Source: Promicromonosporaceae bacterium (GTDB lineage Bacteria > Actinomycetota > Actinomycetes > Actinomycetales > Cellulomonadaceae). Taken from it: 64,000 bases of DNA. Position numbers and translations under genes: made by a program. Below the pieces are notes generated by a model. That model was given only the letters and a program-made list of their open reading frames with translations, did no database searches and had not been told where the DNA came from. How positions within the stretch are numbered: the stretch's first letter is position 1; every line of letters starts with the position of its first letter. The DNA is taken from contig WRHK01000010.1 in the NCBI GenBank assembly GCA_009783295.1, forward strand, positions 17,793 through 81,792. Reading direction: 5' to 3'. This document shows positions 41,708 through 51,932 of the stretch, piece by piece.

Positions 41708-43330
41708 TCAGCGCGGCTCGACCCCGGACCGGAGCAGGCCGAACACGTGCGCGTCGAGCAGCGCCTCCCACGACGCCTCGATGATGTTCGGGCCCACGCC
41801 GACGGTCGACCACGTCTGCTCGCCGTCGGTGGTGACCACCAGGACGCGCGTGATCGAGTCGGTGCCCTGCTCGCTCTCGAGGATGCGCACCTTGAAGTCC
41901 GTGAGCTCGAACCGGTCGATCTCCGGGTAGATGCGGGTCAGGGCCGTGCGCAGCGCCTGGTCGAGGGCGTTGACCGGGCCGTTGCCCTCCCCCGTGCTGA
42001 CGAACCGCTCGCCGCCCGCGCGCAGCTTCACCGTCGCCTCGGCGAGCGCGACCGCGTTGCGGCCCTGGCCGCTGCCCGGCGTCGTCTCGACGATGGTGCG
42101 CCACGACTCGACCTCGAAGTACGACGGGCGCTCGCCCGTGAGCTCCTCGCGGAGCATGAGCTCGAACGACGCGTCGGCGGCGTCGTACGTGTACCCGTCG
42201 GCCTCGGCGGCCTTGACGCGGTTGGTGACGCGCGACAGCAGCTCGGCCTGGCCCGTGAGGTCGAACCCGAGCTCGCGGCCCTTGAGCTCGACGGCGGCGC
42301 GGCCGGCCATGTCGGACACGAGCATGCGCATGTCGTTGCCGACCGTCTTCGGGTCGACGTGCTGGTACAGGTCCGGGTCCACCTTGATGGCTGCGGCGTG
42401 CAGGCCGCCCTTGTGGGCGAACGCGCTCGCGCCCACGTACGGCTGGCGCTGGAACGGCGTGATGTTGGTGATCTCGGCGATCGCGTGGGCGATGCGGGTG
42501 GCCTCGCGCAGGCCACCGTCGGCCAGCAGGTCCATGCCCAGCTTGAGCTCGAGGTTCGCGACGATGGCGATGAGGTCGGCGTTGCCCGTCCGCTCGCCGT
42601 AGCCGTTGACGCAGCCCTGCACGTGGCTCGCGCCGGCGTCGACGGCGGCCAGCGAGTTCGCGACCGCGCAGCCGGTGTCGTTGTGGGCGTGCATGCCCAG
42701 GCGGGGACCCTCGCCCAGCACGGCGCGCAGCGCGCCGACGACGTCGGTCACGCGGTCCGGCAGCATGCCACCGTTGGTGTCGCACAGGGTGACCACCTCG
42801 GCGCCGGCGTCGAAGGCGGCGAGCGCGGCGTCGGTGGAGAACTGCGGGTCGAACCGGAACCCGTCGAAGAAGTGCTCGGCGTCGAGCACGACGCGGCGGC
42901 CCTCGCCCACCAGGAACCGCACGGTGTCGGTGATCATCGCCAGGCCCTCGGCCCGCGTGGTCTTCAGGGCCCGCTCGACGTGCCGGATGTCCGACTTCGC
43001 CACGAGCGTCAGCACGGACGCCTCGGAGTCGAGCAGCGCTCGCACCTGCGGGTCCGCGTCGACGGCGACGCCCGCCTTGCGTGTGGAGCCGAACGCGGCG
43101 AGCACGGCGTTCTTGAACGTCAGCTCGGTGCGTGCGCGGCGGAAGAACTCGGTGTCCTTGGGGATGGCGCCCGGCCACCCGCCCTCGATGTAGCCGACAC
43201 CCAGCTGGTCGAGCAGCGGCGCGATCGCCAGCTTGTCCGCGACGGTGAGGTTCATGCCCTCCTGCTGGGCGCCGTCGCGCAGCGTCGTGTCGTACACGTC
43301 GAAGGTCACGTGGGGGTCCCTCTTCCTCAT
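41708..43330 (-). CDS. cimA: (R)-citramalate synthase
   Basis: VYDTTLRDGAQQEGMNLTVADKLAIAPLLDQLGVGYIEGGWPGAIPKD; C-term LeuA-dimer-like regulatory region. Confidence 0.94.
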   Translation of the reverse strand: MRKRDPHVTFDVYDTTLRDGAQQEGMNLTVADKLAIAPLLDQLGVGYIEGGWPGAIPKDTEFFRRARTELTFKNAVLAAFGSTRKAGVAVDADPQVRALLDSEASVLTLVAKSDIRHVERALKTTRAEGLAMITDTVRFLVGEGRRVVLDAEHFFDGFRFDPQFSTDAALAAFDAGAEVVTLCDTNGGMLPDRVTDVVGALRAVLGEGPRLGMHAHNDTGCAVANSLAAVDAGASHVQGCVNGYGERTGNADLIAIVANLELKLGMDLLADGGLREATRIAHAIAEITNITPFQRQPYVGASAFAHKGGLHAAAIKVDPDLYQHVDPKTVGNDMRMLVSDMAGRAAVELKGRELGFDLTGQAELLSRVTNRVKAAEADGYTYDAADASFELMLREELTGERPSYFEVESWRTIVETTPGSGQGRNAVALAEATVKLRAGGERFVSTGEGNGPVNALDQALRTALTRIYPEIDRFELTDFKVRILESEQGTDSITRVLVVTTDGEQTWSTVGVGPNIIEASWEALLDAHVFGLLRSGVEPR

Positions 43331-43354
43331 GCTGGTTCTGCTTGCTCCGCCAAC

Positions 43355-43449
43355 AAAAAAGACCTCCCGGGTACGGAAGGTCTGCGCGTCCGGCGTGGGT
43401 GGGGCCGGACGCGCTAGCTAATGAAGGCGCGGGTGTGCTGGGAGGTCAC
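43355..43449 (-). promoter_or_regulatory. Candidate cimA attenuator: short ORF, hairpin, intrinsic terminator
   Basis: GTG ORF 43449-43414 (VTSQHTRAFIS*), 11-bp perfect hairpin 43384-43414, 10-bp stem with tetraloop (43360-43383) followed by TTTTTT on the minus strand. Confidence 0.65.
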
Positions 43450-43595
43450 CAGGCCATGGTGCCATACCGGATGATCACGCCGGCAGGCGTATCGCCCACC
43501 GGAACCGGACAAAGGTCGCAGAAAGTCCACCCCGGCACGTGCATCTCACCGGGATCCGTGTTCAGGTGGAAGGACGAGCACGGGAGGAGCCCATC

Positions 43596-44234
43596 ATGAG
43601 CGACCCGAACCGACCGTACGAGAGCGCGCCGGAACCGGCCGGCGGCTACGAGGCACAGCCCGCCAGGCAGCCCGCGTACGAGCCCCAGCCGGCCACGCGG
43701 CCGGTGTACCAGGCCCAGCCCGCGGCACGGCCGGCGTACGAGGCCGAGCCCGCCGGCCAGCCCGCCTACGAGCCGCGGCCCGACGTCACCGAGACCGCAC
43801 CCACGCGGCCGGAGCGGCTCCAGCTCGACGTCGGCCGCTACTGGGGCGGTGCGCTCGCGACCGTGCTGGTCTGCGCGCTGATCGGCCTGGTGGCGTGGTT
43901 CGTCGTGGACCGCGTGGCGAGCGAGGACCTGCGCAACCCGCCGTTCGGCGGCTCCGCGGCGGCGTCGTGGGCGGTCGCCGGGGCGATCTTCGCGCTGCTC
44001 GCGGCGATCCTGCTGAACCTGCTGGTCGTCGCGACGCCGCGACCGGCGTCGTTCTTCGGCTGGATCGTGGCGATGGCCACCATCATCCTGGCGGCCATCC
44101 CGTTCACGGGCCGCAGCATCGACCTCAGCGCGGTGCTGACCGCGATCGTGTGGGTGGTGCTGGGCGCGGCGGTCTGGTCGCTGCTGACAGGCGTGCTGTC
44201 CAGGACCGTCGTCCGCCGCGCCCGCACCGTGTGA
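43596..44234 (+). CDS. Membrane protein with N-terminal Tyr/Glu/Pro/Ala decapeptide repeats
   Basis: MSDPNRPYESAPEPAGGYEAQPARQPAYEPQPATRPVYQAQPAARPAYEAEPAGQPAYEPRP then four hydrophobic segments; SD-like GGGAGGAG upstream. Confidence 0.78.
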   Translation: MSDPNRPYESAPEPAGGYEAQPARQPAYEPQPATRPVYQAQPAARPAYEAEPAGQPAYEPRPDVTETAPTRPERLQLDVGRYWGGALATVLVCALIGLVAWFVVDRVASEDLRNPPFGGSAAASWAVAGAIFALLAAILLNLLVVATPRPASFFGWIVAMATIILAAIPFTGRSIDLSAVLTAIVWVVLGAAVWSLLTGVLSRTVVRRARTV

Positions 44235-49928: not shown

Positions 49929-51767
49929 TCAGTCCTCTCGGTCCCACGACGGCGAGATGCCGCGCGCGTACTGGATCTCGTCGTTGCTCACGCCCGCGGC
50001 CACCATGGGCCACACGAGCGCGTCGCGCGAGACGGTGAAGTCGACGACGACGGGGCGGTCGTCGATCTCGTTGGCCCGCTTGATGGCGTCGTCGACCTCG
50101 GCCGGCGACTCGACGCGGATGCCCACCGCGTCGTACGCCTCGGCGAGCTTGACGAAGTCGGGCACCCTGCGCGTGCCGTGGCCCGTGTGCAGGTCGGTGT
50201 TGGAGTAGCGCTGGTCGTAGAACAGCGTCTGCCACTGCCGCACCATGCCGAGCGAGCTGTTGTTGATCAGCGCCACCTTGATGGGGATGTCGTTGATCGA
50301 GCAGGTGGCCAGCTCCTGGTTGGTCATCTGGAAGCAGCCGTCGCCGTCGATCGCCCAGACGTTGGCGTCGGGGCGGCCCACCTTGGCGCCCATGGCGGCG
50401 GGGACCGCGTAGCCCATGGTGCCGAGGCCGCCGGAGTTGATCCAGGTGCGCGGGTGCTCGTAGGTGATGAACTGCGAGGCCCACATCTGGTGCTGGCCCA
50501 CGCCGGCCACGATCACGGCGTCGGGGCCGTTGATCTCGCCGACGCGCTGGATCACGTGCTGCGGCGAGAGCAGGCCGTCGTCCGTGGGCGTGTAGCCGAG
50601 CGGGTAGGCGGCGCGCCACTCGTCGATCTGGTGCCACCAGCCGGCCAGGTCGGGCAGGCCGGAACGCTCGTGCTCGGCCTGCAGCGCCGGCACCAGGTCG
50701 GCGAAGACCTCTCGCAGGTCGCCCACGATCGGCACGTCCGCGGTGCGGTTCTTGCCGATCTCGGCCGGGTCGATGTCGGCGTGCACGACGGCGGCGTGCG
50801 GGGCGAAGCTCGAGAGCAGGCCCGTGACGCGGTCGTCGAACCGGGCGCCGAGGGCCACGATCAGGTCGGCCTTCTGCAGCGCGGCGACGGCAGGCACGGT
50901 GCCGTGCATTCCGGGCATGCCCAGGTGCTGCGGGTGCGTGTCGGGCACGGCTCCGCGGGCCATGAGCGTCGTGACGACGGGGGCGCCGGAGACGTCGACG
51001 AGCTTGCGCAGGCCGTCCCACGCCTGCGCGCGGATCACGCCGCCGCCGACGTAGAGCACGGGCCGGCGCGCCGTCGCGAGCAGCCGCGCGGCCTCGCGCA
51101 CCTGCTTGGCGTGCGGCTTGGTCACCGGGTGGTAGCCCGGCAGGCGCGTGTCGGTGGGCCACGTGAAGCGGGTCTGGCCCTGCAGCGCCGACTTGGCGAT
51201 GTCCACGAGCACGGGGCCGGGGCGGCCGGTCGAGGCGATGTGGAACGCCTCGGCGATGGTGCGCGGGATGTCGTCCGGGTTCGTCACCAGGTACGAGTGC
51301 TTGGTGACCGGCATCGTGATGCCCACGATGTCGGCCTCCTGGAAGGCGTCCGTGCCGATCATCGACGCGCCGACCTGACCGGTGATCGCGACCATCGGGA
51401 TCGAGTCCATGTTGGCGTCGGCCAGGGGCGTCACCAGGTTGGTGGCACCGGGGCCCGACGTCGCCATCGTGACGCCCACGCGGCCCGTGGCGTGCGCGTA
51501 GCCGGACGCGGCGTGGCCGCCGCCCTGCTCGTGGCGCACCAGGATGTGGCGCAGGCGGGTGGAGTCGAGCAGCGGGTCGTACAGCGGGAGGATGGCGCCG
51601 CCGGGGAGGCCGAAGATGACGTCCGCACCGACCTCCTCGAGCGAGCGGACGACTGACTGCGCGCCAGTCATCGCCTCGCCGGCCGCGGTCGAAGCCGCCT
51701 GCGTGCCGGGGAGGACGACGGAGCTGCGCGCGGCGACCTGTGCGGGACTGGGGGTCGGCGTAGCCAT
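49929..51767 (-). CDS. ilvB: Acetolactate synthase large subunit
   Basis: [67 protein letters not shown]. Confidence 0.97.
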
Positions 51768-51887: not shown

Positions 51888-51932
51888 TTAGCCAGCGCGC
51901 CCGGGGAGTACTACGAGGCGGATCGTCTGCAT
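51888..51932 (-). CDS. ilvB leader peptide MQTIRLVVLPGRAG
   Basis: 14-codon ORF with Ile/Leu/Val/Val/Leu run, followed by an intrinsic terminator, upstream of ilvB. Confidence 0.85.
   Translation of the reverse strand: MQTIRLVVLPGRAG

Follow-up and report, generated by a model that had tools for sequence, protein, structure and literature searches.

The locus analyzed here raises the question of whether the RNA in front of a citramalate synthase gene senses isoleucine and, if so, how sensing is converted into a decision to transcribe the gene. Citramalate synthase catalyzes the first step in making isoleucine independently of threonine. Its gene, cimA, lies at 41708-43309 on the minus strand of the window, the whole 64,000-nucleotide stretch of Promicromonosporaceae DNA that was analyzed, and the product is a true citramalate synthase by its match to TIGR00977 (595 bits, where the cut-off is 450). 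The longest open reading frame begins at ATG 43330; the start is probably GTG 43309, which we favor because the relatives agree and because GAGGAAGAGGG, a probable Shine-Dalgarno region by sequence and by comparison with relatives, lies at 43328-43318. A divergent gene adjoins the element on the other side (43539-44234, plus strand) and separates it from ilvE. Its 231-aa product has a proline/alanine-rich start followed by hydrophobic segments, and no NCBIfam match was found for it at 0.001.

What lies between the two genes is compact, and all of it is on the minus strand. An extended -10 promoter element (TGG CACCAT, 43456-43464) ends 6 nt 5' of a GTG codon that opens a short reading frame (43414-43449). 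The frame, probably leaderless, encodes VTSQHTRAFIS followed by a TAG stop. Two residues before the stop is the candidate sensor codon, ATT for Ile (43420-43422), and a 5-nt spacer (43415-43419) separates it from a hairpin, P1 (43384-43414). P1 is a perfect 11-bp stem with arms at 43414-43404 and 43394-43384 (GCGCGTCCGGC/GCCGGACGCGC), the first base being the G of the stop codon. It is followed at a distance of 0 nt by the terminator hairpin T (43360-43383), which has 10 bp with one G.U pair and the loop UACC (AGACCTTCCG-TACC-CGGGAGGTCT in the DNA), and then by a U-tract of six T (43355-43360), which would complete an intrinsic terminator. When the 121-nt leader (43340-43460) was folded with RNAfold, both hairpins were predicted, at -53.1 kcal/mol (z = -3.94), and 0 of 200 shuffles were equally stable. 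Finally, GACCTCCC at 43447-43440 is complementary to GGGAGGTC. The reading frame, the two hairpins, the six T and this last match are the features from which a first-pass annotation had proposed an attenuator, and all are present where it had placed them.

The same parts are found in the same order 5' of cimA in 28 of 30 relatives. In an alignment of 41 sequences, 96% of the pair cells are standard and 10 of the 20 pairs change on both sides, a count that leans upward because the alignment was fitted to the structure; every measure of covariation is higher than in the slid controls and in any of the 500 shuffles. Although the fitting favors such a count, free folds of all 203 cimA elements yield both hairpins, P1 in 203/203 and T in 203/203. 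Seven of the 11 P1 pairs show double changes, and 98.4% of the T cells are paired (both in the 41 sequences). Two nested hairpins account for the covariation. The base of P1, GCGCG/CGCGC, is nearly invariant, and the T run after the terminator is conserved. Dimensions are also held within narrow limits: P1 mostly has 10-12 bp (163/203) and T 9-11 bp, and the two are separated by 0 nt in 162 elements, by 1 nt in 37 and by 2 nt in 4. The first nucleotide of the T loop (43373-43370 in the window) is C or T in 191/203, the rest of the loop being A/C-rich; the pyrimidine bias could reflect a pause site or a short GCG:CGY pairing.

How widespread is the element? A first covariance model, seeded with ten in-register sequences, gave at most one strong match per genome in 59 relatives, adjoining cimA, with the exception of one leuS match. 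A second model was built from 41 sequences. At E <= 1e-4 it had matches in 155 of 396 genomes of the order (211 of the 396 contain cimA itself), and at E <= 3e-4 in 151 of 297 genomes of the class. The gene directly downstream of the 217 examined matches was cimA in 203 cases, ilvB in 11, leuS in 2 and the gene of one other small protein. Among the 80 best-matching named cimA loci, 78 have the element within about 300 bp upstream, loci of Streptomyces, Actinomadura, Kribbella, Nocardioides, Knoellia, Isoptericola and Cellulomonas being among them. In four genomes that have cimA without the element, cimA abuts the preceding reading frame. The element is a class-wide actinobacterial RNA element preceding cimA.

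A few individual cases deserve mention. The match before the small protein (L114, G589:C37:283436-283498) has an Ile leader, MFALVIIM, and the protein resembles an ACT-domain protein. In five Streptomyces loci (L344, L347, L349, L354, L355) the cimA leader is VLSFATIIGSRRAGPQ, P1 is much longer, about 70 nt, and 8 nt lie between the Ile codon and P1. Some relatives only (L013-L024) carry an extra hairpin, GCCGGGCACCACC...GCCCGGC, 3' of the U-tract in what would be readthrough mRNA; it is absent from the window. Four weak model matches (L069-L072) were dropped on inspection, as they are located inside coding regions. In the plasmid collection, similarity to the cimA locus was seen in several Streptomyces records; it was mostly coding sequence and was left out of the analysis.

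The leader peptide identifies the likely signal. A reading frame that opens with a start codon and closes at P1, or just within it, could be assigned in 195 of the 203 cimA elements. Ile makes up 21% of the leader residues; it stands at -2 from the stop in 163/195 and at -3 in 149/195, and the pair Ile-Ile occurs in 164/195. ATT and ATC are used about equally in leaders. In five neighboring genes, by comparison, Ile accounts for only 2.7% of the codons and ATT for 0 of the 53 Ile codons. The window peptide has a single Ile (Phe-Ile-Ser; the near relatives L031 and L033 have Val-Ile), a weak sensor, which speaks against an isoleucine response. Judged from the leaders as a group, the conserved sensor residue is Ile; the Phe beside it in the window, where the first-pass annotation proposed stalling at Phe-Ile, locally replaces the first Ile that most leaders have.

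Position is conserved too. The last Ile codon and the first G of P1 are separated by exactly 5 nt in 149/193 leaders and by no fewer than 5 nt in 185/193, and the 5-nt spacing is kept in 18 of about 20 leaders whose stop falls inside P1. Upstream, most members have the consensus TGTGg-CAnnaT, an extended -10, 6-8 nt before the leader start. An xAxxxT hexamer is found 5-8 nt before the start in 187/195, which is an upper bound because the choice of start favored such hexamers (control positions give 9% for 6-7 nt), and TGN in 155/182. With an extended -10 just before the start codon, the leader transcript is probably leaderless, with transcription predicted to begin at the start codon itself.

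Codons for an amino acid of the pathway thus lie in the leader frame, and a terminator lies between that frame and cimA. Together with the conservation of promoter, peptide, hairpins and U-tract across the class, this makes isoleucine-responsive, ribosome-mediated attenuation of cimA, as such, very probable on the sequence evidence. The attenuator of the first-pass annotation is therefore supported, with Ile as its sensor: the alignment of related cimA upstream regions that it had proposed as a check found the frame and the hairpins conserved, with covariation, and not the lack of conservation that it had said would speak against an attenuator. Two explanations dispense with isoleucine altogether. 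P1 and T might be a plain double-hairpin terminator of ilvE or of a stray transcript; ilvE does lie just upstream on the same strand in some relatives, and adjacent hairpins are known at terminators (PMC8355165). This is very unlikely, as it leaves the conserved promoter, start codon, Ile codons and fixed Ile-P1 distance unexplained; moreover, the divergent gene stands between ilvE and the element in the window, and the element is absent from some families in which cimA abuts ilvE. In the other, the reading frame is incidental and the leader acts as a ligand-binding riboswitch or binds a protein, as has been suggested for the LEU element. The nearly invariant base of P1 and the conserved terminator sequence would suit it, but there is no Rfam family match and no conserved unpaired pocket, and the most specific conserved feature is the Ile codons, which become L/V/I codons before ilvB or leuS. 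We consider it most improbable.

If the leader attenuates, what does the ribosome switch? According to the first-pass annotation, the 5' end of the leader, GACCUCCC, would pair with the 3' arm of T, GGGAGGUC, once the ribosome has stalled near the end of the frame. The complementarity is a perfect 8 bp in the window genome, and the segment would sit just behind a ribosome holding Ile in its A site. However, among 195 leaders the 8-nt match of GACCTCCC to GGGAGGTC occurs in one, that of the window, where 0.4 are expected from shuffles; the other leaders, close relatives included, mostly have 3-5 nt of complementarity, and complementarity between the leader and the 3' arm of T is overall below the shuffled expectation. 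(GUGACC is a common leader start.) We rejected this pairing as a conserved mechanism, and the chance that it operates is slight. The classical arrangement of trp attenuators has more in its favor: P1 would be the 1:2 hairpin, an anti-antiterminator, and a stalled ribosome masking its 5' arm would free the 3' arm to pair with the terminator (2:3), for instance through GCG with the loop CGY. The order of parts is that of trp and ilv attenuators, about 93% of the sequences could form the 3-bp GCG:CGY pairing (with a pyrimidine as first loop nucleotide in 191/203), and the model for C. glutamicum likewise uses a trinucleotide switch. Yet the region freed by masking the 5' arm is not more structured than its shuffles (z = +0.36, 60 sequences) and has a mean energy of -3.6 kcal/mol against -16.6 for T. 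Alternative helices were sought by position-pair complementarity across the 203 aligned elements and by folding with the P1 5' arm taken away. Register shifts and pairs between G-runs and U-runs aside, only P1 and T are conserved at more than 3 bp, and all that is left of a 2:3 antiterminator is the 3-bp GCG:CGY. Furthermore, P1 would not be masked with Ile in the A site, because it starts at +12. A classical switch therefore seems unlikely, if well short of negligible.

We prefer the view that P1 itself is the switch. When the Ile codon occupies the A site, the first nucleotide of P1 is at +12, where +1 is the first nucleotide of the P site. Stem-loops of 11-12 bp whose first nucleotide is at +12 are positioned at the mRNA entry channel and hinder binding of the A-site tRNA (PMC7282821, PMC8861025). 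A ribosome that waits at the Ile codon should therefore not disturb P1; to arrive at the stop codon, it must first have melted the base of the hairpin. The ilvB leaders of the same genomes obey the same rule, the last branched-chain codon being followed by 5 nt and a GCGC hairpin in 15/18. In the mutation-backed model of C. glutamicum ilvBNC, the role of antiterminator falls to the hairpin that directly follows the control codons, which overlaps the base of the terminator by 3 nt (PMC11857589). It is this fixed geometry, the common rule and the C. glutamicum precedent that lead us to favor P1 as a gated antiterminator.

In the scheme that follows, the start site, termination, the response to isoleucine and the role of P1 are each predicted from sequence. 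Transcription would begin at the GTG, give or take one nucleotide, and a 70S ribosome would translate the leaderless peptide, in which the rare Ile codon ATT, 5 nt before P1, alone stands out. When Ile-tRNA is plentiful, the ribosome would advance to UAG, drawing GCGCGU, the basal strand of P1, into its mRNA channel and so melting P1; the abutting T could then zip to its base, and transcription would stop. When Ile-tRNA is scarce, the ribosome would wait with Ile in the A site, and P1, starting at +12 just outside the ribosome, would remain folded. Since P1 abuts T without a spacer, the folded P1 may keep the base of T from closing in the exit channel of RNA polymerase, and cimA would be transcribed. 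P1 may also slow the entry of Ile-tRNA, as the dnaX stem-loop does. P1 and T coexist thermodynamically, both being present in the minimum-energy fold, so exclusion of one by the other needs sterics, and our literature search found no direct precedent for a hairpin of the P1 type sterically excluding an abutting terminator. We consider the explanation as a whole, an isoleucine-responsive attenuator with gating at P1, to be probable; that P1 acts as a ribosome-gated antiterminator specifically by abutment is tentative, and we give it slightly less than even credence. Broader still, and doubtful, is the idea that the cimA, ilvB and leuS leaders of actinobacteria share a design without alternative pairing, in which a 10-12 bp stem-loop at the mRNA entry would brake decoding of the sensor codon and, as long as it is folded, sterically block the adjoining terminator; the advancing ribosome would melt the stem-loop and so allow termination.

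Is the element new? Rfam 15, with its T-box, ilvB and leader families, gave no match at the gathering score in the element region, and a relaxed threshold gave chance matches only. The first-pass annotation knew of no cimA leader of this type, and our searches agree: no description of a cimA leader peptide or citramalate synthase leader was found in the open-access literature, to which the search was confined, so that priority is not certain. Seliverstov et al. cover ilvB, leuA, leuS, trp and cys leaders and T-boxes, with cimA not among them (PMC1262725); an RNA-seq list of leader peptides in S. lividans has eight leaders and does not name cimA (PMC8079986), which speaks against a cimA attenuator. 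On sequence grounds the element is best called a new Ile-specific, cimA-associated attenuator built like the actinobacterial ilvB attenuators. With it, the known branched-chain regulation would extend, across the class and in Streptomyces too, to an isoleucine-specific control of the citramalate route, and the covariance model can be used to annotate it. There is also an old puzzle here, namely how the branched-chain leaders of actinobacteria work without classical antiterminators. As reported in PMC1262725, swapping the regulatory codons of the S. coelicolor ilvB leader left regulation unaffected, and by analogy such leaders may not behave classically. The fixed distances, from sensor codon over 5 nt to hairpin and over 0-1 nt to terminator, are common to the ilvB leaders and offer a concrete and cheap test.

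In closing, we compare the element with systems already known. The E. coli dnaX frameshift signal has the same arrangement of A-site codon, 5-nt spacer and stem-loop of about 11 bp from +12; that stem-loop pauses the ribosome and shifts the frame, and for cimA the analogy is one of geometry only. The LEU element of actinobacterial leuA belongs to the same phylum and also has a leader frame with branched-chain codons. It forms a pseudoknot without an obvious terminator, its run of Leu codons pairing with the Shine-Dalgarno region of leuA, whereas the cimA element combines Ile codons with two simple hairpins and a terminator; in codons and terminator, the comparison, which the first-pass annotation had also suggested, sets the two apart. 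The leuS attenuator of Streptomyces (leuL2, MRAVRLLLSEPR) likewise has a leaderless frame, a hairpin and a terminator, but its codons are for Leu and it serves an aminoacyl-tRNA synthetase. The cimA models also caught leuS leaders such as MFFTDSLLSQPR and MRRTLLLT (L068 (G048:C2), L242, L247), in which a hairpin close to the stop codon is followed by a terminator. The window also has an attenuator of its own for ilvB (51932-51809, minus strand; ilvB match at about 50691-51677): in the leader MQTIRLVVLPGRAG, starting at 51932, the last branched-chain codon stands 5 nt before a 12-bp GCGCGC hairpin, which abuts the terminator CGGGGGGTTTTT. The closest likeness is to the actinobacterial ilvB(NC) attenuators (ilvL of S. 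coelicolor and S. lividans, the ilvBNC/ilvB-II motif of C. glutamicum, ilvB1 of M. tuberculosis), which share the leaderless short frame, the branched-chain codons, the GCGC hairpin 5 nt after the last sensor codon and the adjacent intrinsic terminator. Unlike them, the cimA element would sense Ile only, and in most cases the UAG that closes its leader frame falls right at P1; unlike the middle hairpin of C. glutamicum ilvBNC, which overlaps the terminator by 3 nt, P1 abuts it. Since 203 of the 217 elements lie upstream of cimA rather than ilvB, the element is related in design to the ilvB attenuator and is not the ilvB element itself.
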